The notes below the pieces were generated by a model that searched no databases, had not been told where the DNA came from, and saw only the letters and a list, made by a program, of their open reading frames with translations. A stretch of 64,000 nt of DNA from positions 92,387,369-92,451,368 of the forward strand of contig OY979716.1 of NCBI GenBank assembly GCA_963855995.1. The letters are read 5' to 3'. Shown in pieces: positions 1,568 to 53,804 of the stretch; the first letter of the stretch is position 1, and each line of letters starts with the position of its first letter. The position numbers and the translations under genes were made by a program. This DNA is from Muricea muricata (lineage: Eukaryota > Cnidaria > Anthozoa > Malacalcyonacea > Plexauridae).

Positions 1568-2158
1568 ATGGATGTCAGATTTAAAACGCCAGCGAATTTT
1601 TACATTTCTGGTCAGACTCAGTCAGGGAAGAGTCACCTAACTCGCTGCATGTTGCGTCATCTGGAAGAACTGTTTTACCCTGTTCCTACGAAAGTCATCT
1701 ACATGTACGGTGTATATCAGAAAGAATTTGATGAATTGCCTCCAAACGTGGAATTGGTAGAGGGGTTTCCCGATAATTTAACTGACATGATTCGTGGTCA
1801 TGATCATTCTCTGATCGTGTTGGACGATTTGATGTCGCAATGTTCCAACGATCAACGCGTTGCCGATCTATTTACCCGTGGCTCGCGTCATCATGGTATA
1901 TCCGTATTGTACCTGACGCAAAATTTGTTTCCGCCCGGTAAACTATCGCGCACGATCAGTTTGAATTTCCACTACTTGGTGATCTTCCGAAATCCGCGCG
2001 ATTCATTGAGTGTTTCAACATTGTCGAAACAAATGTTTCCCGGACGTACCGACTACCTTATGGAATCGTTTCGCGATGCTACGAGCAGGCCCTACGGGTA
2101 TTTGGTAATCGACTGCCATCTTGGTTTAAAAACCAAATGTCTAAATGTCTTTGTGTAG
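1568..2158 (+). CDS. A32/FtsK-type genome packaging ATPase
   Basis: The 196-aa product begins directly with a P-loop domain. Walker A is GQTQSGKS (residues 15-22), Walker B is LIVLDDLM (about 83-90), and the segment VLYLTQNLFPPG (about 117-128) matches the sensor-like strand with a conserved Gln and Asn in HerA/FtsK/A32-type packaging motors. RTISLNFHYLVIFRNPRD and SRPYGYLVID are also typical of the family. Such ATPases pump viral DNA into preformed capsids in Polintons, adintoviruses and related dsDNA viruses. All catalytic motifs are present. The last few residues look odd: homology with another locus (8763 onward) begins right at the stop codon, so the 3' end has probably been replaced by recombination. 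Further fragments lie at 2243-2542, 8918-9163 and 47640-47870. Confidence 0.75.
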   Translation: MDVRFKTPANFYISGQTQSGKSHLTRCMLRHLEELFYPVPTKVIYMYGVYQKEFDELPPNVELVEGFPDNLTDMIRGHDHSLIVLDDLMSQCSNDQRVADLFTRGSRHHGISVLYLTQNLFPPGKLSRTISLNFHYLVIFRNPRDSLSVSTLSKQMFPGRTDYLMESFRDATSRPYGYLVIDCHLGLKTKCLNVFV

Positions 2159-5235: not shown

Positions 5236-5500
5236 AATAAGTCCACAGGAAAAAGCTGCACTTTTCTTCAGGGTCAGTGTCCTAACATCTGAAATAAGGC
5301 CGATTTGGATTTTTTGAAGAGTACGACAACCACAGGCTCGTCAATTCATTACAATCGCGCTTTGGAAAATTGGATGGTTTGTATTTTTCAAGGACCTTGC
5401 TCTCATACGCGTCCATCAAATTCAAATATTTCTCCTCTGGAACAAAGAGAGTGCATGGTTCTTTGCTACACTTCACGTAGCCTCTCTCTTTTTGAGACTC
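5236..5500 (-). pseudogene. Two-part GRF-type zinc finger protein, copy 1 (nonsense)
   Basis: The frame reads GYVKCSKEPCTLFVPEEKY, then NFPKRDCNE and NRPYFRC, then a TAG stop, after which the remaining codons (TDPEEKCSFFLW) are still in frame. The copy at 55885-56211 has glutamine at the stop and a cysteine where this one has an arginine. This arrangement matches the GRF zinc finger (CxC, RPYFxC, CxFxxW), which binds nucleic acid in proteins such as NEIL3 and topoisomerase 3. Two disabling changes mark it as a pseudogene. Confidence 0.65.
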
Positions 5501-5699
5501 GAATCCCTCTAGTGCTCCATCCTTACAAAAATATTCAAAGTTTTTTAATTAATACCATTTTCATTGGGCTTAGTTCCCAGGGACTTTTGCAGAACCTGCG
5601 TCTTATTTGCTTTGGCCTGAGACGACTATGCTTACAACTATGGGGATCATATATATATATATATATCGCTTTGCAGCGTTCGACAATAAAAGAATCGAA

Positions 5700-5717
5700 T
5701 TTCGTTTAGATTCTTTC
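5700..5717 (-). promoter_or_regulatory. Histone-downstream-element-like block
   Basis: On the minus strand GAAAGAATCTAAACGAA lies 11 nt past the stem-loop at 5729-5744. The block AAAGAAT-NN-AAACGAAAT recurs at the same place after the bZIP-like gene at 53508-53744. Histone pre-mRNAs carry a purine-rich AAAGAAAGA-type element at this position, which pairs with U7 snRNA. Confidence 0.55.
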
Positions 5718-5728
5718 ATAGATTTGGT

Positions 5729-5744
5729 GGCCCTTAAAAGGACC
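5729..5744 (-). terminator. Histone-type 3' stem-loop
   Basis: Read on the minus strand this is GGTCCTTTTAAGGGCC: a 6-bp stem, loop TTTA, fitting the histone mRNA stem-loop pattern (GGYYYU-4 nt-ARRRCC) at every constrained position. It is followed by ACCA and begins 16 nt after the stop codon of the bZIP-like gene at 5760-6086. Confidence 0.6.
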
Positions 5745-5759
5745 GGTTTTTGTTCGTCT

Positions 5760-6086
5760 TTAAAAAAAAAGACCCGGAATTTGTATTTCTCCAGCGAATT
5801 TTGAGTCTTCACAGTCGGTATTAACCATTATATCCGCGAAAAGATCTTCATCCCATAGCAAATTCTTTGGTTCCACCAGATCATTGGTTGGTTTAGTTGT
5901 TTCTCGATGAAGAATCTGCTGAACAGCCAGCCAATGATCCGGAGCGTTCGCTCTCAGATACTCCAGTACACTTCTCAGCTTTTCAGCTTCCATCTTCAAC
6001 TCTTCGACTTCCCTCTTTTGTCTGGCACGGTGCCTCGCCGAGCGTAGCCGTGATTCTTCTCGTCTCCTTTCAATTTTTGAGTTCAT
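5760..6086 (-). CDS. bZIP-like protein, copy A
   Basis: The 108-aa product has a basic region (ERRREESRLRSARHRARQKR) followed by leucines at heptad spacing (EEL, EKL, EYL) and an acidic C-terminal part (LLWDEDLFADIM) that could act as an activation region. In classical bZIPs the basic region has N-x7-R; here the Asn position is Ser12 with Arg at 20, so DNA specificity may differ or be lost. Copies C and D have Ala at that position and copy E has Asn. The start is set by an ATG 36 nt downstream of a TATA box. The ORF is intact and its 3' end carries a histone-type stem-loop. It is transcribed away from the small zinc-protein remnant at 6505-6600. Confidence 0.6.
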   Translation of the reverse strand: MNSKIERRREESRLRSARHRARQKREVEELKMEAEKLRSVLEYLRANAPDHWLAVQQILHRETTKPTNDLVEPKNLLWDEDLFADIMVNTDCEDSKFAGEIQIPGLFF

Positions 6087-6121: not shown

Positions 6122-6294
6122 TTTTATACATTCCTGCGGTTTTAGATGATTGGTTGAGAGAAGAAAAGCGCGAAAATTCATCGTTACGTACGCAATATCC
6201 ATGCTCTGATTGGTCGAAAAGCGTACGTGCGCAAGACTAACATTATATAAATTAATTTGAGACCGAAACGCTAACATTATAGGTATATGCAAAT
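6122..6294 (-). promoter_or_regulatory. Histone-like promoter of bZIP copy A
   Basis: Reading upstream from the bZIP ATG on the minus strand: TATAAAA (6122-6128), a CCAAT box (6149-6153), an E2F-like TTTTCGCGC (6168-6176), a TACGTACGC palindrome (6185-6193), a second CCAAT (6209-6213), another GCGTACGT palindrome (6221-6228) and an ATGCAAAT octamer (6287-6294). TATA, CCAAT, octamer and E2F sites together are typical of S-phase histone promoters. Copies C and D keep the TATA, CCAAT, ACGTACG and octamer sites at similar spacing. Confidence 0.55.
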
Positions 6295-6600: not shown

Positions 6601-6798
6601 TTCACAAATGCTCAATACAAGGTTGCTTGGCCCATGGTCTATCAGAACCATTTCTAGTTTTTGTTCGCTCACCACAACTCGCGGTCTGAGCTCCTGAGCC
6701 TCCTTTCTCAGGTCTTCCTATTCCCTATTTTGCCTAGCCCTGTGTCGCGCCGAGCGTAGCTTGCTCGCTTCTCTCCGCTTCTGGAGTCTTTGGTCCAT
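6590..6798 (-). pseudogene. bZIP-like copy B, nonsense
   Basis: From an ATG at 6796-6798 the frame gives MDQRLQKRREASKLRSARHR, then hits TAG after RQNRE; the following codons still read EDLRKEAQELR. Upstream sit TATAAAA (6833-6839) and CCAAT boxes, as in the other copies. The stop falls at the basic region/zipper junction, so no dimerising protein is possible. Confidence 0.55.
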
Positions 6799-16882: not shown

Positions 16883-17310
16883 GGCCTGTTGTATAAAAAG
16901 TGATTAAAGTTATTAAAGTGATTAAAGTATGATTAGTGTAGACATTAACCAATTAAAACAAGGTATTTTCAGTGGGTATTTTGTACTCAATCACTACTTA
17001 ACTACAAAACAGTGGTTAAGCAACCCATGGACAATATTTCATTTTACGGTTGCCTTTGCCGTTACGTTGGCTTCGCGTTACATTTGTTTTGAATACCCCG
17101 ATCGCGTCAAAAGCCATTTTGGCTTCATTTCACGGAAAGAATGGAGTTTCCTCCTTCGATCCGAAGAATGGTTTAGTAGAAATGTTTTAACAGCAAAATC
17201 GAGCAAATGTAATTCCAAAGGCGAAGATTTAAGTACATCTGGAATGAGAACGATCGATGGTATAAAATAGCGTTCTAGCTAATTAGGTCCAGCTTATCGT
17301 TGATTCTCAT
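16883..17310. other. Single TIR-like end, otherwise no gene
   Basis: GGGCCTGTTGTATAAAAA at 16883 resembles the terminus of the TIR element at 42239 (GGGCCGGTTGTATAAA) and is likewise followed by GTGATTAAAG-type direct repeats. No matching right end was found. The open frame at 16929-17270 has no recognisable domain. Confidence 0.35.
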
Positions 17311-17528
17311 TTGGGATTGCCTTCTTTGTTTCACGAAGTGTTAACTCATTTTGTTAGAATTTTCGAAATTTCCGGTAATTCAAGCGTACGTCTCTTCCAC
17401 TTAATGTTTTTACAAAACCTAAATGTTTCTAATTCTCTGCAAATAACTTGCAAATCTTTTTTGTTGGATAGCATTGACGGTAATACTGAATACCATCGCG
17501 TTCATAAAGCCCTCCAAACAAACGAGTT

Positions 17529-17599
17529 GACTCCGTGGCGCAATCGTAGCGCGTCTGACTCCAGATCACAAGGTGCGTGTTCGAATCACGTCGGGGTCA
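17529..17599 (+). pseudogene. tRNA-Trp-like (CCA), degenerate
   Basis: GACTCCG...CGGGGTC acceptor arms pair well and the anticodon loop CTCCAGA gives CCA, but the anticodon stem is mismatched (TCTGA against TCACA) and bases are missing relative to the copy at 19896. Confidence 0.6.
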
Positions 17600-18474
17600 T
17601 TCTGGATAGCTGACGGGGCTAGTAATAGTCGGTACAAGTGGGAGTTAGGTTTTGTTTCTTTGAACCCTCTTGACGAACTGTTAAAAATGCACTGCAAAAT
17701 AATAAAATTCTGCTATTTGTCCTCTTAGGGAAAAAACAAAGGACAGGAATAGAAAAGATACTTGGCTTCCACTGAGACTTTAACCTGGAATGCCAAAAAT
17801 TACACCATGGATCCAATCAATGCGAATTTTAATTGACTACAAATAAGACGTTGCTACAAGGATCCCACCAGTATCCACTATAAATCAATAGAAAAGAGTT
17901 GTATAATCATATACAAAGCCGAGTTAGGACTCGAAAATAATAAACTGCTGGGAAATACCTTAGTAAATAGTGCTTATAACATAGTGCTTGTAATAATGCT
18001 TACTGCATTGTAATAATAATAATGCACCGGATAATGCTTGTAATCGATAACGTCGACACGAGCTGGAATATGGGTTTCGTTTCCTATTTCTTTACACGCT
18101 CTTTCCTTAACTCATAAAAAATACAATCCGAATTTAAAAATCGTCGCTATTTCTTGCCAATTCAACAACACACAACAAACATAATGCTTATATACAGTTC
18201 AAAAACGTTTCCCCTGACCATTTTAAGCGGGTGCTCATTTAGCTTACACTGAGATTTGAAATTGGATCACGGGCTTTAAGGTCCTGAGTTTTAACCAATC
18301 CACCATGCAAACAATTGGTCAACACCTATCAATACGCCCTCTTAGGATAGACCATGTATGTTCTAGATATCGATTGAAAACAAGAAGTATTATATTTCTT
18401 CACACATATGACCGAAATAAGGCTCCAAAGTCTTCTGGGCGAAGAAAAAAATGACAGGCATTGAAAAAATGTTT

Positions 18475-18546
18475 AGGTTCCATCGAGATTTGAACTGGGA
18501 TCGCAGGATTCAGAGTCCTGAATGCTAACCCTTACACCATGGTACC
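18475..18546 (-). tRNA. tRNA-Gln (CTG)
   Basis: Minus strand: A box TGGTGTAAGGGTTAGCAT, anticodon arm CAGGACTCTGAATCCTG with anticodon CTG, and B box AGTTCAAATCT. The acceptor stem has one A-A mismatch. It may be functional or freshly decayed. Other degenerate copies are at 21145-21216, about 20163-20216 and about 17765-17815. Confidence 0.6.
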
Positions 18547-19895
18547 AATCATGGCGAAAAGTTTCTAGCAATAGGATGCATTCTGTTCGAGCTATACATC
18601 GATAGAAAACAAAAATTATTATGATTACATATAAGGCGAGATAGGATGAAAACATACAGCATCACTGAAAAATATCGTAGTTTATGCAATTATTTCGTGA
18701 TTAAAAAGATTTTGTTATACTGTGTGGGACATCCGGTGCTGTGAAAGCCGAGAGCTTAAGGCGAATGTAAAAAGTAATTTAACAAAATAGAATTTTTAGG
18801 TCAAGGTGTTCCTGTTTTCGAACGCAAGCGTTGAAATGCAGTTATTCGATGCTTCACCGACCCTCCTCATATGCATGGGATCATTAGTTAGATATCTTTC
18901 TTGTGGGTCGTTATTATGTTATATTGTTCTGCCCTTAACCATCTTTGATTTTCTCCGTCGAATTGTATTTTAGGAACATTTTGGCTGCGCACTTGAGGAA
19001 AAGAGATTATGAAGGCGAAGATATACCATATCTCTCTTGAATTAAATAAATGGTGGAAAAAAAAGCGTTGAAGGTAATTACGTCCACCTTGCCTTGCCGT
19101 TGTATCTCGATTGGAAGTGGCTTCAATGTACTTTAATGGATTGTTCTTTCCTTTAGGATCCTCGAAGTTCCCGGTATTTCAACTCTTGCATTTCTTCCAC
19201 TTCATATTTTCACAAAAACAAAATATTTCTAAATCCATGCAAATAATTTGCAAATCATACAATATTCGAGGTTTCCGATAATCCAACTCGTGCATCTCTT
19301 CCAGTTGATCTTTCAATAATACCTGAATAATTCTCTCTTAATGAAAATAATTTGCTAATCGTTTTTCTTGGATGGCATTGAGGGCAATACTTCATAGCAT
19401 CGCTTTCAAAATCTGCGCAGTATTTAGAAAAAGTATTTCAATGCTTCAAAGACCCCCCTATTATGTGCATGGTATTGTCTGTGAGATGCCTTTCTTTTCG
19501 GTCGTTATTGTAATAGGCGGCTCTTCTTCAACTCACAGATCTTTGATTTCCTCGTTGGATCTGAAGAATAGTTTTGTAGCAATGTTTCTACAGCAGAATC
19601 GAAAAAATGTAATTCGAAAGGAGAAGATTTACAGTATATCTGGAAAGAAATTGATGGTGAAAAAATAGCGTTCTAGCTAATTGTATCCAGCTTATGGTTG
19701 AATCTCAATTGGGATTTCCTTCCCTTGTTTCAAAGAATTTTCGAAGTTTCCGCTAATTCAAGAGTACATCTATTCTTTTACACAACCTAAATATTTGTAA
19801 TTCTATGCAAATAATTTGAAAATCTTTTTTGTTGCATAGCATTGACGGTAATAGTGAATAGCATCGCGTTCATAAAGACCTGAAACAAACGAGTC

Positions 19896-19967
19896 AACTC
19901 CGTGGTGCAATGGTAGCGCGTCTGACTCCAGATCAGAAGGTTGCGTGTTCGAATCACGTCGGGGTCA
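19896..19967 (+). tRNA. tRNA-Trp (CCA)
   Basis: 72 nt with intact D arm (GGTGCAATGGTAGCGC), anticodon arm TCTGA-CTCCAGA-TCAGA (anticodon CCA) and T arm GCGTG-TTCGAAT-CACGT. The acceptor pairs except its first position (A opposite C). Best preserved of three copies (17529, here, 21547). Confidence 0.7.
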
Positions 19968-20387
19968 TTACGGATAGATGCCGATGCTAGTATTAGATAA
20001 CGTCGGTACAAGTGAAGTGGGAGTTAGGCTGTGTTTCTTTGAACCCTCTTGAATAACTGTTAACTGATTTGACGAACTGTTAAAATACACTGCGAATTAT
20101 AAAATTTTGCTATTTGTCGTCTTAGGAAAGAAAAACAAAGCACAAGAATAGACAAAGATATTTAGGTTCCACTGAGATTTTAACCCGTAGTGCGAACCAT
20201 TACACCATGGTCCAATCAATGCGAACCTTGACTATCAATAAGACGTTGCTACAAGGATCCCACCGGTATCCACTACAAATCAATAGAAAAGAGTTTTATA
20301 ATCATATAAACCTCATAAAATACCTTAATTTTAAAAAAAATTGTAAATGAAATAATACATTTTGTTTCATCATGTGGGACATCCGTT

Positions 20388-20469
20388 GCGGTCGTGGCCG
20401 AGTGGTTAAGGCGGCTGACTAGGAATCAGTTTCCCTCTGGGAACGTAGGTTCGAGTCCTACCGTCCGTG
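20388..20469 (+). tRNA. tRNA-Ser-like with AGG anticodon
   Basis: Class II tRNA of 82 nt with the GGCCGAGTGGTTAAGGC D arm typical of tRNA-Ser, a long variable arm (TTCCCTCTGGGAA) and T arm GTAGG-TTCGAGT-CCTAC. The anticodon loop is CTAGGAA, giving AGG, which reads the proline codon CCU; the sibling at 21628 has AGA (Ser). The acceptor stem has one mismatch. It is either a mistargeted tRNA or a pseudogene. Confidence 0.6.
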
Positions 20470-20647
20470 AAGAAATTTATTGCGATGTAAAATATTTTTC
20501 AACGTGAACCCTTAGTTCAGTATTTAAAGGCTTCACAGACCACCTTTACATGTACAGGATTGTTGCTGAGATAAAATAAGGCACCACTGACAAATACCAC
20601 AATTTATACATTTATTTCTTGAATAGAAAAACAGATTCATTTCCACT

Positions 20648-20745
20648 ATGTTTGTTATGCGGTGCAGTCGTGGCAGCGAGGTTAAGGGACAGACTCGTAA
20701 TCAGATTGCCTCAGGGAGAGCAGGCAGGAATCCTTCCGACAGCGA
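20648..20745 (+). pseudogene. tRNA-Ser remnant
   Basis: GCAGTCGTGGCAGCGAGGTTAAG and GCAGGAATCCTTCC recall the D arm and T arm of the Ser tRNAs in this cluster, with insertions and a damaged anticodon arm. A still weaker relic is at about 18730-18765. Confidence 0.4.
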
Positions 20746-21144
20746 AGTAATTTTAGGAATAGTTTTACAACGCATTGGAGTGAAAGTGATTCCACAAAAG
20801 AAGATTTGCAATATATCTGGAATTAAATTGATGTTGGAGAAGATAGCGTTCCAACTTATCACGTCCAGGTTATCGTTGAATCTCAATAAGACTGGCATCT
20901 TAGTTCCGCACAATGTTAACTCATTCTGTTAGAATCTTCAAAGTTTCCGGAAATTCAAGAGTAAATTTCTTCTTCATCTTTTAACAAAACCTACTGTAAA
21001 TATTTCTTTTTTGAAGCAAATAATTTGCAAATCTTTTTTTTGTGGGAATGCATTAAGGGCAATAATTAAAAGCTTCGCTACTAAAAATTTTTTCGAGTGA
21101 TCGTGTATTCCGTTTCAAAATAGTAGCGCGTTGAAAAAATATTT

Positions 21145-21216
21145 AGGTTCCACCGAGATTTGAACTCGGATCGCAGGATTCAGAGTCCTGAATGCTAACC
21201 ATTACCCCCTGGAACG
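21145..21216 (-). pseudogene. tRNA-Gln (CTG) copy, damaged 5' end
   Basis: The anticodon arm (CTG) and B box (GAGTTCAAATC) are intact on the minus strand, but the 5' part reads CAGGGGGTAATGG in place of CATGGTGTAATGG and the acceptor has lost its first pair. Confidence 0.5.
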
Positions 21217-21546
21217 AACCATGACGAAAAGTGTCTAGCAATAGGATACATTCTGTACGAGCTAAAAAACGTAGGTACAAAAAATAGCTTTGCAGCTAAT
21301 TACGTCCACCTTACCGTTGAATCTCAATTGGGATTGGCTTCTATGTATACTTCAATGAACAGTTCTTTCCGTTAGGATCCTCGAAGTTTCAGATATTTCA
21401 ACTCTTGAATCTCTTCCACTTCATGCTTTCACAAAACAAAATATTTCTGACTCTATGCTAATAATTTGCAAATCCTTTTTGTTGGATAGCATTGAGGGCA
21501 AGACTGAATAGCATCGCTTTCATGAAGTCCTCCAAGCAATCGAGTC

Positions 21547-21617
21547 GACTTCTTTACGCAATGGTAGCGCGTCTGACTCCAGATCAAAAAGTTGCATTTT
21601 CCAAGCACATCGGGGTC
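21547..21617 (+). pseudogene. tRNA-Trp copy, degenerate
   Basis: Keeps ATGGTAGCGCGTCTGACTCC, but the acceptor, anticodon 3' stem and T loop (TTTTCCAAGC) are damaged. Confidence 0.55.
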
Positions 21618-27290: not shown

Positions 27291-39899
<12,609 letters not shown>

Positions 39900-41649: not shown

Positions 41650-41905
41650 GGGCGCACCCTCATTAGAATATCGTGCTCTGATTGATCGAAAAGCGTACGT
41701 ACTCCCCGTGACGTACGCTATACCCGTGCTCTGATTGGTTAAAACAGCATACGTATGCCCCGTGACGTACGCCATAGCCGCGCCCTGATTGGTTAAAAGA
41801 GCGTACGTTCACCCCGTGACGTACGCTATAGCCGCGCTCTGATTGGTTAAATAGCTTACGTACACCCCGTGACGTACGTTTAGTCGCTCTCTGATTGGTT
41901 AATGG
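41650..41905. promoter_or_regulatory. Tandem CCAAT/CRE-like promoter modules, array 1
   Basis: Four to five units of about 54-57 bp, each with CTCTGATTGGTT (CCAAT box inverted), an AGCGTACGT half and CCCCGTGACGTACGC (CRE/ATF-like TGACGT inside an ACGTACG palindrome). A TATA-like TGTATAAATTC follows at about 41919-41929, then the GRF-type ORF at 41956. A shorter copy of the array is at 47890-48093. Confidence 0.7.
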
Positions 41906-43396: not shown

Positions 43397-44329
43397 TTAC
43401 GCTAAGCCACTTGTTAGAGTGGCTGATACCCCAGATAGAGTGACAGGAGGAATTTTTATGTATCGTTCGTAGCAATCAGATGTCCAACGTCCTAAGGTTT
43501 TGATTAGCCACGATGGCAATTTAGCGGCAGCTGCGGTTGTTGCTGCCCCAATTCGATAGCTATGACCAGCATAATGCGCTGCATTGAAACCAGATTTTTG
43601 AAGCAGTGACCGTGTCTCAGATGTCAGAAGTTGCTTTGTCAAAGGCTTACCCGAGGAAAGAACGAATAATGGGCCATTGTCAATTTTTCTTGTTGAAAGA
43701 TACCGTTTCATAGCTAAGACCGGACATAGCGGAGAGTTACATGCTCCTACTGTTATAGATTGCCCAATACGAAAAGGATCGGTTTTGGATTCTTTAATCC
43801 GGATTGTCATAGACACTGGATTCACGCTTGGTGTTAGTAGAACGTCCCTTAGTGTCAGATGTACTTCCGGATTAAACTTTGAGTTGCAGGTTAACTCTCC
43901 TAGTCGGAGAAAGCCAAAGAAAGCCAAAGTCATGGCGGCCCAAATCATAATTGAACTATAGTTTTCAGTGGACGGAATTGAAAGTAGCAGATGAAATAAT
44001 TTCATGTGGTGAATCGTAATAGGTAGACGGATTTGAATTTCGCCTCCCTGAGATCTCTTTATACCGCGCAAGACCAGCTGAAGGCGAGACATTTTTTGAA
44101 AATTTAAGCGAAAACCTTGACGAATATGAAAATGACGGACGGCGGCTAAATAGATTTTTATTGAAGAATGTTTGATGTTTTTTGCCAAATAAGCAACGAA
44201 TTCAGTCAGTAAAGCTTCAGAGGCAGGAAGACATCGTTGCATTGTGCTACCTTTGAATAAATGTATAAACTCTAGAAAACGTTTTTCACCCGACGAGTAT
44301 GTCTGCTTGGTAGATGATGCCATTGACAA
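43397..44329 (-). CDS. Tyrosine recombinase of DIRS-like element
   Basis: 310 aa. N-terminal SAM-like core-binding region (SSGEKRFLEFIHLF...), then the catalytic domain: Arg in GFLRLGELTC, the HSYRIG box (His-x-x-Arg) and the nucleophile region LGRWTSDCYERYI. All four key residues are visible. It would integrate circular cDNA by strand exchange without target duplication. It begins 26 nt after the RT ORF stop. Confidence 0.85.
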   Translation of the reverse strand: MSMASSTKQTYSSGEKRFLEFIHLFKGSTMQRCLPASEALLTEFVAYLAKNIKHSSIKIYLAAVRHFHIRQGFRLNFQKMSRLQLVLRGIKRSQGGEIQIRLPITIHHMKLFHLLLSIPSTENYSSIMIWAAMTLAFFGFLRLGELTCNSKFNPEVHLTLRDVLLTPSVNPVSMTIRIKESKTDPFRIGQSITVGACNSPLCPVLAMKRYLSTRKIDNGPLFVLSSGKPLTKQLLTSETRSLLQKSGFNAAHYAGHSYRIGAATTAAAAKLPSWLIKTLGRWTSDCYERYIKIPPVTLSGVSATLTSGLA

Positions 44330-44355
44330 GTTTATGTACCTTTCTATGTCCTTAT

Positions 44356-45756
44356 TTAAATGGTTAGAAGTGCAGCTGGAATCGGGTATGGGTTGGGATC
44401 TGCTAGTGGTGCCAGCTCTCTGAACCGTTTGTGCTGGAAACGAGAAAGAGAATCAGCAATTGCATTTCGTTTTCCAGGTATGTGCTGGGCTTTTATGTAG
44501 AAATTGTATTGCATTGTGAGAAGTGTTAAGTGGCGTATTAGGTCCATAACCCTAGGGATGTGTGAACGTTTGGTGTTGATCATGCTAACCACTGCTTCAT
44601 TATCGCAGTTAAAAAGAATTCGTTTCTCGCAGAGGAGTTCCCCCCAAATTTGGCATGCAACTACAATGGCAAATAGTTCCTGCCATGCAATGCTTATGCC
44701 AGCCGAGCCTAACTGTTGCTGGGCAAGCCAGGTCCCCTGAAACCACTTAGATTTGAAAATCCCTCCATAGCCTTTTGATCCGGATGCATCAGTGTGTAGC
44801 TCTAAGAAGTCAGACCCTTCCCAAGTAGATGAAATGAAAAAATTTGCCCCATTCCAATTTGAAATAAAAATCTTCCACATCTGTAAATCCTTGTAGAACC
44901 CAGCATTTAGTTTTATGTGGTGGTGAGACTTCTTAATATTTCTGGTTAAATCAATCATACGTTGTAAAAAGGGCCTACCTGGTGGGACAACTTTGCATGC
45001 AAAATTTAAGCTACCAATTAATGATTGCAATTCTTTTAATGTACAAGAATGCTTATTTTCAAATTGTTGTATGAGTAATGACAAACGATTAATTTTATCA
45101 GCTGGAAGGCGAGCTTCCATCTTCAGAGAATCCAAAATAATACCCATAAATTCAAGAACTTGCAATGGACCTTGTGTTTTACCTGGTGCTATGGGAATAT
45201 TCAAATTTTTGAAGGTCATCAACATGGCCGAAAGACTTTGTTGGCATAAACTATCTATGGGTAAGATGTCAGCTTGAGGTTCGATAATTAGAAAATCGTC
45301 TAAGATATGACATACAAAGGAAATCTGACATTTATTAATCAATATCCACTCAACTGCATCAGAAAGTTGATTAAAGAGATAGGGTGCACTTCGGAGGCCA
45401 AAAGGTAACACTTTATCATAATAAAATTTTTCTTTCCAATGCATGCCTAGTAATTCATAGTCGTCGGGATGAACAGGAATAAGTCGAAATGCAGATTCTA
45501 TGTCAGTCTTAGCTAAAAAACAGCCCTGGCCTGCATGCTTTATGCCTTCGATAGCATGGTCAATTGTGACATACTGTAAAGCAAAATCATCTTTAGAAAT
45601 AGCACTGTTTATGCTGGTCATACCTGATTTAGGAAAAGAGAGATGAAAAATTGTCCGGAATTTGTCAGAGTTCTTTTTTGGAACCAAGCCAATTGGTGAA
45701 ACCACTTTGAATCTGTTTAACATACGCAGCTGGAACATCGAGCGCGGCGTGCCCAT
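44356..45756 (-). CDS. RT-RNase H polyprotein of DIRS-like element
   Basis: 466 aa. RT motifs: SPIGLVPKKNSDKFR, FLAKTDIESAFRLIPVHPDD, LPFGLRSAPYLF and the catalytic HILDDFLII (LDD in place of YADD, as is usual in DIRS elements). RNase H follows with ELHTDASGSKGYGG, ISIAWQELFAI, FNCDNEAVV and IADSLSRF, giving the D-E-D-D set. The 5' end overlaps the Gag ORF by 92 bp in another frame, so expression probably uses a frameshift. No methyltransferase domain follows. Confidence 0.85.
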   Translation of the reverse strand: MGTPRSMFQLRMLNRFKVVSPIGLVPKKNSDKFRTIFHLSFPKSGMTSINSAISKDDFALQYVTIDHAIEGIKHAGQGCFLAKTDIESAFRLIPVHPDDYELLGMHWKEKFYYDKVLPFGLRSAPYLFNQLSDAVEWILINKCQISFVCHILDDFLIIEPQADILPIDSLCQQSLSAMLMTFKNLNIPIAPGKTQGPLQVLEFMGIILDSLKMEARLPADKINRLSLLIQQFENKHSCTLKELQSLIGSLNFACKVVPPGRPFLQRMIDLTRNIKKSHHHIKLNAGFYKDLQMWKIFISNWNGANFFISSTWEGSDFLELHTDASGSKGYGGIFKSKWFQGTWLAQQQLGSAGISIAWQELFAIVVACQIWGELLCEKRILFNCDNEAVVSMINTKRSHIPRVMDLIRHLTLLTMQYNFYIKAQHIPGKRNAIADSLSRFQHKRFRELAPLADPNPYPIPAALLTI

Positions 45757-46231
45757 ACCGTGGCGTCGCTTCTGAACTGGCTAAATCAACTACTGGAACC
45801 GATAGTGCTGCTTGTCCAACGTCGGCCAAAGATGAGATTGGAGCGTCCGTGATATTGTGGGATGATATGGCAGGGTGTTCGACAGACGTTGACGGGGTTA
45901 ACTGTTGTGGCGAATTTTGTATGGCATTCACAGCTGCACGCGCGGCATTGGTAGCGATTTCACTCATGGCTTGCTCGATGCTGCGTGATACGATCGATTG
46001 GATCTGGGAGAGCTGTGCGTCGTTTAAAAGACCGGGCTCATTTTGTTCTACAGTTGATCTCGTGGAAGTGCCAGGATTCGTATTGTCCGAAGCGTGTTGT
46101 TGCAGACGCGAAATTAACGTTGCTTTTCGTCCTGTAGTTGAAAGGCCTTTTTCCTCGCACCTTCGTCGTAAATCCTCTATTGTGACATCGTTGTCCGCGA
46201 GCGTTCTTCTCCTGTTGCGAACTGGAGGCAT
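45665..46231 (-). CDS. Gag-like protein with SAP domain
   Basis: 188 aa. Residues 17-47 (TIEDLRRRCEEKGLSTTGRK, then LISRLQQH) form a SAP helix-extension-helix DNA-binding motif. The rest is a Ser/Thr/Ala-rich spacer with a helical part (IVSRSIEQAMSEIATNAARA). It is the first ORF of the DIRS-like element, and its end overlaps the RT frame. Confidence 0.65.
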   Translation of the reverse strand: MPPVRNRRRTLADNDVTIEDLRRRCEEKGLSTTGRKATLISRLQQHASDNTNPGTSTRSTVEQNEPGLLNDAQLSQIQSIVSRSIEQAMSEIATNAARAAVNAIQNSPQQLTPSTSVEHPAISSHNITDAPISSLADVGQAALSVPVVDLASSEATPRYGHAALDVPAAYVKQIQSGFTNWLGSKKEL

Positions 46232-47639: not shown

Positions 47640-47870
47640 AGGCGGTACAAAAACTGGCAGAACAACGTTTGTCAAGAAATTGTAAGGCAACGTTCAAGTG
47701 ATGATTGACCCGCCGCCTGAGAACATTAAATATTTTTATTCCGAGTATCAGGATACATTTGCTGAGATAAAATCATTAGTTCCGAACATTGAGTTTATTG
47801 AAGGTGTACCAGATGTGATATTCGACAGTGTCAACCCCAAGACGCGAAATCTTTATATATTTGATGGGCG
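47640..47870 (+). pseudogene. Packaging ATPase fragment, broken P-loop
   Basis: The frame GGTKTGRTTFVKKL, stop, GNVQVMIDPPPENIKYFYSE, then IEFIEGVPD and RNLYIFDG follows the start of the ATPase at 1568. The Walker A lysine is Arg (GRT) and a TAA follows. The sequence is cut at Walker B by the promoter array at 47890. Confidence 0.65.
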
Positions 47871-47889
47871 CAAGGGGGGGGGGGGGGGG

Positions 47890-48093
47890 CGAGGGGGGCG
47901 CACACATATTGAGGGGGTGCACCCTCATTAGAATATCGTGCTCTAATTGGTCGAAAAGCGTACGTTCTCCCCGTGACGTACGCTATACTCGTGCTCTGAT
48001 TGGTTAAAACAGCGTACGTATGCCCCGTGACGTACGCCATAGCCGCGCTCTGATTGGTTAAATAGCGTACGTACACCCCGTGACGTACGCTTA
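47890..48093. promoter_or_regulatory. Tandem CCAAT/CRE-like promoter modules, array 2
   Basis: Copy of array 1 (41650-41905) with three to four units, starting from the same GGGGGGCGCAC leader and AGAATATCGTGCTCT. It is cut off within ACGTACGCTTA, where the 3' part of bZIP copy D begins. Confidence 0.7.
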
Positions 48094-52464: not shown

Positions 52465-52520
52465 TGGTCAATGCTAACAAAGTGTTTTTAAGTAAAAAAA
52501 AACAACATTAAACAATCGAT

Positions 52521-52561
52521 CTGTTTATATTCTTTTAACATTTGGGATTCTTAAAAGAACC
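52521..52561 (-). terminator. Histone-type stem-loop and downstream block, orphan
   Basis: Minus strand: GGTTCTTTTAAGAATC (52546-52561; 6-bp stem with one G-U pair, loop TTTA), then CCAAATG and a purine-rich AAAAGAATATAAACAG (52521-52539). The order and sequence follow the two other cases. The nearest gene ending toward it is the SF3 helicase fragment, 297 nt away. Confidence 0.45.
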
Positions 52562-52567
52562 GTTTTT

Positions 52568-52843
52568 TTGTTGCTCTCCTCAGAGTTGGCTATCGTGAGA
52601 GAAGGCTTCTTTGTTGTTCGCGTAGCCACTTTTCAAACGCCTAAACTTCGACCTTCGGACAGTGCTAGTACGCGTGCGTACCAAGATAGTGACCACACGT
52701 CTCTAGCCAAACCAATCCATCGAACAAAAACTCGGCTTTCGGATGGTCGTGTCAGTGTTGATATTCCGTTTAAAATTACCAGAGATAAACACTTTAAGAA
52801 CATAATTATCAAACGGCAAAAAAAGGACTATCGGGTTTTGTAA
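52568..52843 (+). CDS. Unassigned 91-aa ORF
   Basis: A Ser/Arg/Lys-rich frame (STRAYQDSDHTSLAKPIHRT...; tail KRQKKDYRVL). Its stop lies 15 nt from the convergent SF3 helicase stop. No domain is recognised and the true start is unclear. Confidence 0.35.
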   Translation: MLLSSELAIVREGFFVVRVATFQTPKLRPSDSASTRAYQDSDHTSLAKPIHRTKTRLSDGRVSVDIPFKITRDKHFKNIIIKRQKKDYRVL

Positions 52844-52857
52844 CAAACGCGGGATTA

Positions 52858-53424
52858 TTAATGATTATAATTCAAAGGCTGTCCGTCCAAAATATTCCTA
52901 TTTACAAGTAGTGTTTTGAGCGAGCCAATAGTGAGGTCATTGAGAAGCACAGCGTCTTTATTGGCAGCGTACGCTAGTTGTTGGTCTAGTTGACTTTCAT
53001 CCAGGATTGTTAGGCGATGGACACTTATTACTTTACTTAGTAAGCCAAAAAATGTGGATTTTCCTGCAAATGGTACCCCATGAATTATCATGTAGTTATG
53101 CCTTCCCGTTTTTTTCGACAACACGGTGCAAAGATGATTAAAATATAGAGTTGGGGATTTCCTATACGTGAATAACAACCACCTATACAAGTATTCGATT
53201 GCATCTTCAACTATAAATGGTGCTTTGGGCTTGGTCTTTAACCCAAAGACCCATGCAACATTACCCGATAATTCATCGGTAACAAATGTAAGATTAAGGT
53301 TGATATATATAGTATCTAAAAGACTGGGCCTACTACCACCTTGACTAAGTATATTTGCAAAGTCGGTCATTTCCTTTCGTATATTATATGTTGCCCCTTT
53401 AAATAACTTGGTGTTGTTGTACAT
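52858..53424 (-). CDS. SF3-type viral helicase fragment
   Basis: 188 aa. Walker A is GVPFAGKST (Gx4GK[ST]) and a Walker B-like strand is DAVLLNDL; the following KTLLVNRNILDGQPLNYNH fits the motif C/B' region of superfamily 3 helicases (parvovirus NS1, papillomavirus E1, other DNA viruses). In a DNA virus it would unwind the replication origin. The usual N-terminal origin-binding or nuclease domain is absent and the C-terminus stops right after the helicase core, so the gene is truncated. The ATG lies only 42 nt beyond the stem-loop of bZIP copy E, so the genes are very tightly packed. Confidence 0.55.
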   Translation of the reverse strand: MYNNTKLFKGATYNIRKEMTDFANILSQGGSRPSLLDTIYINLNLTFVTDELSGNVAWVFGLKTKPKAPFIVEDAIEYLYRWLLFTYRKSPTLYFNHLCTVLSKKTGRHNYMIIHGVPFAGKSTFFGLLSKVISVHRLTILDESQLDQQLAYAANKDAVLLNDLTIGSLKTLLVNRNILDGQPLNYNH

Positions 53425-53465: not shown

Positions 53466-53481
53466 GGTTCTTAAAGGAACC
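53466..53481 (-). terminator. Histone-type 3' stem-loop of bZIP copy E
   Basis: Minus strand GGTTCCTTTAAGAACC, followed by ACCA. It fits the histone stem-loop except for a C opposite A next to the loop. It begins 27 nt after the bZIP stop codon. Confidence 0.55.
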
Positions 53482-53507: not shown

Positions 53508-53744
53508 TTACTTTTGAAGCATGGACAGGTCGAAGTTCAGCACAGCTTCGGCGACGGCAGCCTCCGCTTCTTCTTCGTTTTGCTCTCCAGAGATTGCTTG
53601 GTGCAACGTTTCAAATTCCCAAACTTGCTTTGGATCCTTATTGAACATGAAGGCGTAGAACGCCTTCAACTTCTGTAGCTCAGCCTTTGCCTTTGCTCTA
53701 TTCCTTTGGGTTCTCTGAGCATCGCAATTTCGTCTGTTTTCCAT
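53508..53744 (-). CDS. bZIP-like protein, copy E (canonical Asn)
   Basis: 78 aa starting MENRRNCDAQRTQRNRAKAK. The basic region has the invariant bZIP signature Asn6-x7-Arg14, unlike copies A-D. The zipper is short (ELQKLKAFYAFMF), and the acidic tail (QNEEEAEAAVAEAVLNFDLS) resembles an activation region. The ATG is chosen because TATATAA lies 40 nt upstream at 53784-53790. Coding sequence is strongly diverged from copies A-D, yet promoter and 3' signals are shared. Confidence 0.6.
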   Translation of the reverse strand: MENRRNCDAQRTQRNRAKAKAELQKLKAFYAFMFNKDPKQVWEFETLHQAISGEQNEEEAEAAVAEAVLNFDLSMLQK

Positions 53745-53783: not shown

Positions 53784-53804
53784 TATATAATGCTGTATTT
53801 GCAT
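53784..53804 (-). promoter_or_regulatory. TATA box and octamer of bZIP copy E
   Basis: TATATAA (53784-53790) and the octamer ATGCAAAT (53797-53804, minus) inside a GCTGTAT...ATACAGC palindrome. The octamer is the classical H2B promoter element bound by Oct-1/POU factors. Confidence 0.5.

Follow-up and report, generated by a model that had tools for sequence, protein, structure and literature searches.

The stretch of DNA analysed here (the window) spans 64,000 nucleotides of the Muricea muricata genome and corresponds to C1:92387369-92451368 in an assembly of 453 Mb and 74 contigs. On its minus strand lies a small gene for a bZIP-like protein, referred to below as gene A (Table 1). Its stop codon (TAA at 5762-5760) is followed 15 nt later by a stem-loop, GGTCCTTTTAAGGGCC, with six pairs (one of them U-G), a UUUA loop and a folding energy of -8.8 kcal/mol, and equal folding was reached in 2 of 200 shuffles. 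The sequence-only reading had described this stem-loop at a spacing of 16 nt; the hairpin itself was found as described, but the spacing was one nucleotide shorter. The ACCA and the purine-rich element that it had reported further downstream are both present, the latter (AAAGAATCTAAACGAA) starting 12 nt past the stem. The Rfam Histone3 model (RF00032) matched positions 5749-5705 of the minus strand with 29.0 bits (E 1.3e-5 in a 2.5-kb search; 3.4e-4 for 64 kb and 4227 families). Since the gathering score of the family is 34 bits, the stem-loop is missing from a default Rfam scan. Chance expectation was taken from 400 Markov resamples. A strict stem-loop pattern occurred twice in the window, with one hairpin giving a match on each strand, and 0.3 times on average in the resamples; followed by ACC it was seen once against 0.0025 expected, and with the purine element once against 0.02. 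A looser pattern of stem-loop, ACC(A) and AAAGR, composed after the matches were known, was seen three times and never in the resamples, and stem-loop-like strings with two mismatches were not above chance in the window (58 against 54.7). A protein search using the frame that reads through the stem-loop gave no match. The histone-type 3' module behind gene A is confirmed as a real feature.

Table 1. Genes, 3' modules and promoter motifs in the window
Feature	Position	Strand	Remark
Packaging-ATPase-like gene, surroundings of gene A	1568..2158	+	weak: AAA_16 0.002, terminase 0.0013
Purine-rich downstream element of gene A, AAAGAATCTAAACGAAA	5700..5716	-	resembles host histone downstream element
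ACCA after gene A stem, expected cleavage region	5725..5728	-	sequence
Histone-type 3' stem-loop of gene A, GGTCCTTTTAAGGGCC	5729..5744	-	Rfam match and folding
bZIP-like gene A (P0001)	5760..6086	-	108 aa, single ORF
TATAAAA, 42 nt before gene A ATG	6122..6128	-	copies A-D at -41/-42
CCAAT box of gene A, -67	6149..6153	-	conserved in copies A-D (-66/-67)
E2F-like core TTCGCGC of gene A, -88	6168..6174	-	TTSSCGC at -84 in B, -88 in D, absent in C
Second CCAAT box of gene A, -127	6209..6213	-	
Octamer upstream of gene A, ATTTGCAT	6287..6294		also before C and D, in non-homologous columns
Copy B, remnant of a paralogous gene with one internal stop	6643..6798	-	relative L051 (79%, 3e-20) keeps stem-loop
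Copy C, other DNA in place of its 3' end, without stem-loop	46660..46950	-	
ATPase-like fragment beside copies C and D	47698..47931	+	by eye; no Pfam match
Copy D, runs into CCAAT/TACGTCA tandem array, without stem-loop	47943..48362	-	
Downstream element of third module, AAAGAATATAAACAGAT	52519..52535	-	
Third stem-loop, GGTTCTTTTAAGAATC, then CCCA	52546..52561	-	22.7 bits
Third gene, decayed 3' part, IIDMDGFT family (about 171 aa)	52611..52742	-	tblastn with L014 protein, 61%, 2e-13
Downstream element of P0022, AAAGAATAGAAACGAAA	53437..53453	-	
Stem-loop of P0022, GGTTCCTTTAAGAACC, inner pair C.A, then ACCA	53466..53481	-	27.5 bits
Second gene, P0022, 78-aa basic helix protein	53508..53744	-	
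Octamer of P0022, ATGCAAAT, -60	53797..53804	-	box TATATAAG at -45

The same model matched the minus strand at two further places which the sequence-only reading had overlooked, 53486-53442 (hairpin equalled in 1 of 200 shuffles) and 52566-52521 (15 of 200). All three matches are on the strand of the gene concerned, and all three score under the Rfam cut-off. Behind P0022 the stem starts 26 nt past the stop codon; an AATAAA that lies 3 nt after this stop, upstream of the stem-loop, counts against a histone-type reading of this gene. The third stem-loop is located 49 nt past the remnant of its gene. On alignment of the three modules 35 of 59 columns were invariant, including AAAGAAT and AAAC of the downstream element. 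Searching the window with a model built from them gave no further match, the next-best score being 16.8 bits (E 0.94), and the pair changes across these three modules alone did not go beyond shuffles (172 of 500).

Gene A had been read as a bZIP gene, and here a resemblance is what is left of the claim, both a Pfam bZIP match and the invariant Asn of the basic region being absent from the protein. In common with bZIP transcription factors (PF00170 and PF07716), it has a basic stretch followed by Leu30, Leu37 and Leu44 at seven-residue spacing, and a long predicted helix (residues 2-47). The consensus of the bZIP basic region contains an invariant Asn and Arg. Among the 12 family members Arg20, Leu37 and Leu44 are invariant and Leu30 is kept in all but one, whereas the position of the Asn is occupied by Ser or Ala in all 12. 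The Pfam bZIP_1 model was found in 2 of the 12 members (best E 0.083) and bZIP_2 in 3 (best 0.42), P0001 itself having no bZIP match at 0.01; better scores were obtained with the coiled-coil models CENP-F_leu_zip (0.00084) and Uds1 (0.0057). In the AlphaFold model of the bZIP-like protein (pLDDT 79-90 in blocks over residues 1-60) a long basic helix is separated by a break from a second helix, after which comes a tail of low confidence, and the model of P0022 has a similar outline. As the hhalign comparison of the two families was too weak (probability 10.8, E 0.0028), we do not call them homologous. Sequence and fold searches of the PDB with the bZIP-like protein, and a PDB search with the ATPase, returned nothing useful. 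The dN/dS values of gene A against copy C (0.19) and copy D (0.205) indicate that its protein is under purifying selection; the value for C against D (0.389) is not usable because five differences are too few.

In the genome the bZIP-like protein has 43 match entries, some of which are pieces of one copy. Presence of the stem-loop after the stop in other copies had been set beforehand as a test, and all eight copies found to have kept their 3' end (the window's, the near-identical C1:92333138, C1:12063714, C3:20948014, C11:4602063, C11:4605209, C1:38669516 and C1:66295678) carry it. Seven of the eight keep all six pairs, the outermost pair being broken in C1:66295678. The other 34 of the 43 entries, copy C included, end or diverge upstream of the stem-loop position, and palindromic half-copies of the gene are also without the 3' end. 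With RF00032, the window's copy and its near-identical counterpart (29.0 bits) and C3:20948356 (32.9) remained below the gathering score, C11:4601926 and C11:4605081 (36.5 each) and C1:12063655 (35.6) exceeded it, and two further copies were absent from the Histone3 match list. For the P0022 family the stem-loop was recognisable in 12 of 12 places, comprising six from the Histone3 list, the window's and five read by eye. The outer pair is lost in L084, L085 and L087, an inner C.A pair occurs in two of these three and in the window's P0022, and L088 has lost the downstream element. Several relatives in the protein database read past the usual stop and, by eye, show the module in their translation (P0021, P0028 and P0029, and P0030 in part); counting against this, the bZIP-like relative P0009 continues past the stop into sequence that is not a stem-loop.

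Two candidates were discarded in the course of this comparison. Copy B was considered as a degenerate stem-loop after a 3' UTR and rejected, the stretch being coding sequence of a paralogue of L051, and a 3' UTR-like remnant at 42240-42150 (minus strand), which has the left arm only, was excluded from the copy count. A near-identical second segment with bZIP-like copies A and B was noted 60 kb from that of the window (C1:92332979-92334175), and the region contains several more such stem-loops.

A Histone3 search of the genome gave 72 matches at E<=1e-3, of which 50 were above the gathering score; since 75 of 101469 first-look candidates were scored, the counts and proportions given here are not genome totals. 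Only one of 14 control genomes gave a match, and none was above the cut-off. We examined 70 of the 72 loci, leaving out gene A of the window and C1:30295375. They divide into 26 histone loci (H1 3, H2A 4, H2B 5, H3 6, H4 8), 35 loci with a non-histone ORF (at least 40 aa, ending at most 160 nt before the stem), among which some short ORFs may be due to chance or lie out of the gene's frame, and 9 loci without such an ORF. Histone loci were sorted by histone words (25 loci), while the 26th, the H1 locus L027, was recognised by Pfam. One example per histone class was tested by Pfam; for H4 the core-histone model was below its cut-off and a related histone-fold model above it. The non-histone ORFs belong to the IIDMDGFT family (8), the P0022 family (6), the bZIP-like family (5, and 1 of its B-type paralogue), a family of 64-67 aa (5), a family starting with MGRTKYNDRH (3, plus one fragment assigned by eye) and the MADKERERELK type (2); the remaining 4 are single proteins, one of them with an ISXO2-like transposase match. 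This last protein, L075 (C16:9416095), has the histone stem-loop downstream and matches the ISXO2/IS1595-like transposases weakly (E 6.8e-5; 23.4 bits, the cut-off being 27); L052 and L068 have the same module as L075 without an ORF. In the 64-67-aa family (L024, L025, L030, L031 and L063) one copy has 60 aa, and three of the five loci have UUUC loops.

Host genes for H1, H2A, H2B, H3 and H4 carry the same 3' module, as illustrated by the H3 locus L017 (GGCTCTTTTAAGAGCC ACCAAATCCTTCAAAAAGAAATAAACGAA). When the 32 nt downstream of the gene A stem were compared with the 26 histone loci, the best score was 25, which none of 1000 shuffles reached; the corresponding part of P0022 gave 24 (0 of 1000), and that of the third module gave 20 (17 of 1000), which is only a moderate resemblance. 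In 21 of 25 histone loci the AAAG[AG] motif starts 12-14 nt past the stem, and in 4 it was not found; in 39 of the 45 other loci, among which L027, later recognised as H1, was counted, it starts 11-15 nt past the stem. A stricter AAAGR..AARCRA motif occurred in 37 of the 45 other loci as against only 11 of the 25 histone loci, and the histone downstream elements are therefore the more variable. The stems also differ. In 22 of 25 histone loci the arms are GGCTCT/AGAGCC with a TTTA loop, whereas the stems of the other loci are mostly GGTTCT/AGAACC and in part GGCCCT/AGGGCC, with some of other kinds. As these differences from the histones fall in matched pairs, pairing appears to have been retained despite changed letters, which is not what recent copying of host histone 3' ends would be expected to yield; the argument is from the genome-wide stems. 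Taken against the replication-dependent histone 3' end (RF00032; SLBP, U7 snRNP, CPSF73), the modules are alike in stem-loop letters, ACCA, spacing and a host-like purine element, and are unlike it in standing behind non-histone genes of mobile elements and in having stems mostly of other base pairs. The copies, the genome-wide loci and the host histone modules all lend support, as far as sequence goes, to the histone-like 3' end proposed for gene A.

Histone promoters typically contain octamer, CCAAT and E2F-like motifs, and we take the sites listed upstream of gene A and P0022 to be of these kinds by their consensus. The second CCAAT box lies near -126 in copies A and B and at -197 in C and D. 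The likeness of these promoters to those of histones is suggestive only, since these promoters account for 4 of the window's 9 octamers and copies A, C and D are paralogous to one another.

The sequence-only reading had also proposed that gene A is borne by a virus or transposon. This holds to the extent that the genes occur in multiple copies, with packaging-ATPase-like fragments nearby; any assignment to a viral family would be tentative. A possible likeness to Polinton/adintovirus-like elements consists of weak packaging-ATPase-like and DNA-polymerase-like fragments nearby and of the tandem spacing described below. Of the PolB, packaging ATPase, integrase and capsid genes expected together in such an element, the pieces scanned gave weak ATPase and polymerase fragments only, and a capsid or full polymerase was not identified in them. 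Downstream of P0022, at 52858-53424, there is weak similarity to papillomavirus E1 and parvovirus NS1 helicases (E 0.013 and 0.07). In IMG/VR, from which records of the source genome were possibly left out, searches with the bZIP-like, P0022, helicase-like and IIDMDGFT proteins found no relatives, and two stem-loop patterns went unmatched; the ATPase had one 25-residue match (L001), and the 10 kb of L001 that were examined were without a stem-loop. Elsewhere, at C1:70291208-70359611, a palindromic pair of the bZIP promoter segment occurs four times at a spacing of about 22.4 kb, which suggests a tandem array of an element of about 22 kb, and similar single palindromes were seen on C1, C2 and C12.

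Several other features of the window were recorded. Tandem arrays of CCAATCAGAGC and CGTACGTCA, like repeated CCAAT and CRE-half sites, occupy 41670-41900 and 47970-48090, the second adjoining the bZIP-like copy D; judged by eye, these arrays could be binding sites for the bZIP-like protein. A non-LTR retrotransposon at 30291-34834 has one ORF for endonuclease/RT and another that contains a GDSL-lipase domain. At 43397-46231 an RT/RNase H ORF has as its neighbour an ORF that matches phage integrases weakly, as in DIRS/Ngaro-type elements. An ORF at 55885-56366 matches the GRF zinc ribbon weakly, and its DNA is repeated (94%) at 5237-5578, just downstream of the bZIP-like gene. A cluster of tRNA-like repeats (17147-21617) has five tRNA matches above the Rfam cut-off.

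A direct search of the genome with the Rfam U7 family found nothing over the cut-off. A pattern search gave three candidate U7 genes (L089, L090 and L091), which belong together as a family of three copies (CAGTGTAACTTCTTTGG.ACAATTTGTCTAG-like), carry UUCUUU and an Sm-like site, and score 18.6-19.4 bits with the Rfam U7 model (cut-off 34). The pattern itself required UUCUUU and the Sm letters, and the reversed control gave 7 matches against 5; three of the five matches share their flanks, a feature not imposed by the pattern. The AAAGAA of the downstream elements can pair with the UUCUUU of these three loci, though UUCUUU was what the pattern asked for.

In the histone pathway, SLBP and a U7-guided CPSF73 cleavage after ACCA form the 3' end (PMC7026596). 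Metazoan histone mRNAs are described as a unique class without poly(A), which builds up during S phase and is degraded as that phase ends (PMC12775136). A corresponding scheme can be proposed for the element genes. Transcription by RNA polymerase II would begin at short promoters that combine a TATA box with CCAAT, octamer and E2F-like motifs. Once SLBP is on the stem-loop and U7 snRNP is paired to the AAAGAA..AAACGAA element, the pre-mRNA would be cleaved immediately downstream of ACCA, and the resulting mRNA would lack poly(A). As histone messages do, this mRNA may accumulate only in S phase and decay once DNA synthesis stops. With the message limited to S phase in this manner, the basic-helix proteins of the element, which may have a regulatory role, would be present while the replication machinery of the host is available.

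It is possible to account for the modules in other ways. The strict stem-loop pattern alone is frequent enough for a chance hairpin to be thought of, but the RF00032 E-values and the conservation of the module across loci and other copies make this explanation extremely improbable. The stem-loop could also be present on mRNAs that are polyadenylated normally, merely tuning their translation or stability. The AATAAA after the P0022 stop would fit this, as would an ATTAAA about 180 nt beyond the gene A stem-loop, and C. elegans histone genes have a conserved hairpin plus a polyadenylation signal (PMC1924863). In those genes the hairpin is near the signal as in P0022, but the signal is downstream of it and the genes are histones (PMC1924863), whereas in the non-histone gene P0022 the signal is upstream. 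Between 5762 and 5400 at gene A there is no AATAAA and the ATTAAA is the single one of its kind, and the U7-type downstream element, which is needed for 3' cleavage only, is conserved with the stem-loop across families; we consider normal polyadenylation unlikely.

An element may once have captured a histone 3' end that is now vestigial in decaying copies. Many copies are indeed broken and some stem-loops lack a pair, but the stem letters differ between families in matched pairs, the module stands behind several protein families, and none of the preserved 3' ends, 8 of the bZIP-like and 12 of the P0022 family, has lost a recognisable stem-loop, which leaves a passenger origin quite improbable. 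That these are expanded host genes, a family of regulators co-regulated with histones, rather than element genes, agrees with IMG/VR being without relatives and with the protein relatives coming from unnamed contigs only. This seems rather unlikely in view of the dispersed multi-copy distribution, the four tandem copies and palindromic pairs, the ATPase-like neighbours and the protein with a weak transposase match that has the same type of 3' end.

Histone-type expression of mobile-element genes, probably limited to S phase, is the best reading of these sequences. We hold it to be likely that virus- or transposon-like elements present in multiple copies have small genes of regulatory appearance which carry the expression cassette of replication-dependent histones. 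With less assurance, though still leaning in its favour, we propose that a guild of elements shares a parasitic 'histone regulon', in which several unrelated protein families would each have taken up 3' ends from host histones, together with promoters that are partly of histone type, and would keep them by selection. Early genes would then be expressed in S phase and silenced at the end of DNA synthesis, without poly(A). The guild would include at least the bZIP-like, 78-aa basic-helix, IIDMDGFT and 64-67-aa families, and perhaps the transposase-like gene.

The sequence-only reading had regarded a non-histone, mobile-element gene with a histone 3' end as new, and among the open-licence PMC papers listed neither a title nor an abstract dealt with a histone stem-loop in a virus or transposable element; papers beyond that scope are possible. 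The histone 3' signal is already known; that element genes of several families use it seems, within this scope, to be new. A histone stem-loop in a genome scan need not mean a histone gene. The proposal can be tested in one organism, with its own histone genes as the internal standard. If true, element-borne non-histone genes would widen the class of mRNAs that lack poly(A), and the arrangement would give a DNA parasite a simple means of timing its gene expression to S phase and of evading poly(A)-dependent control.
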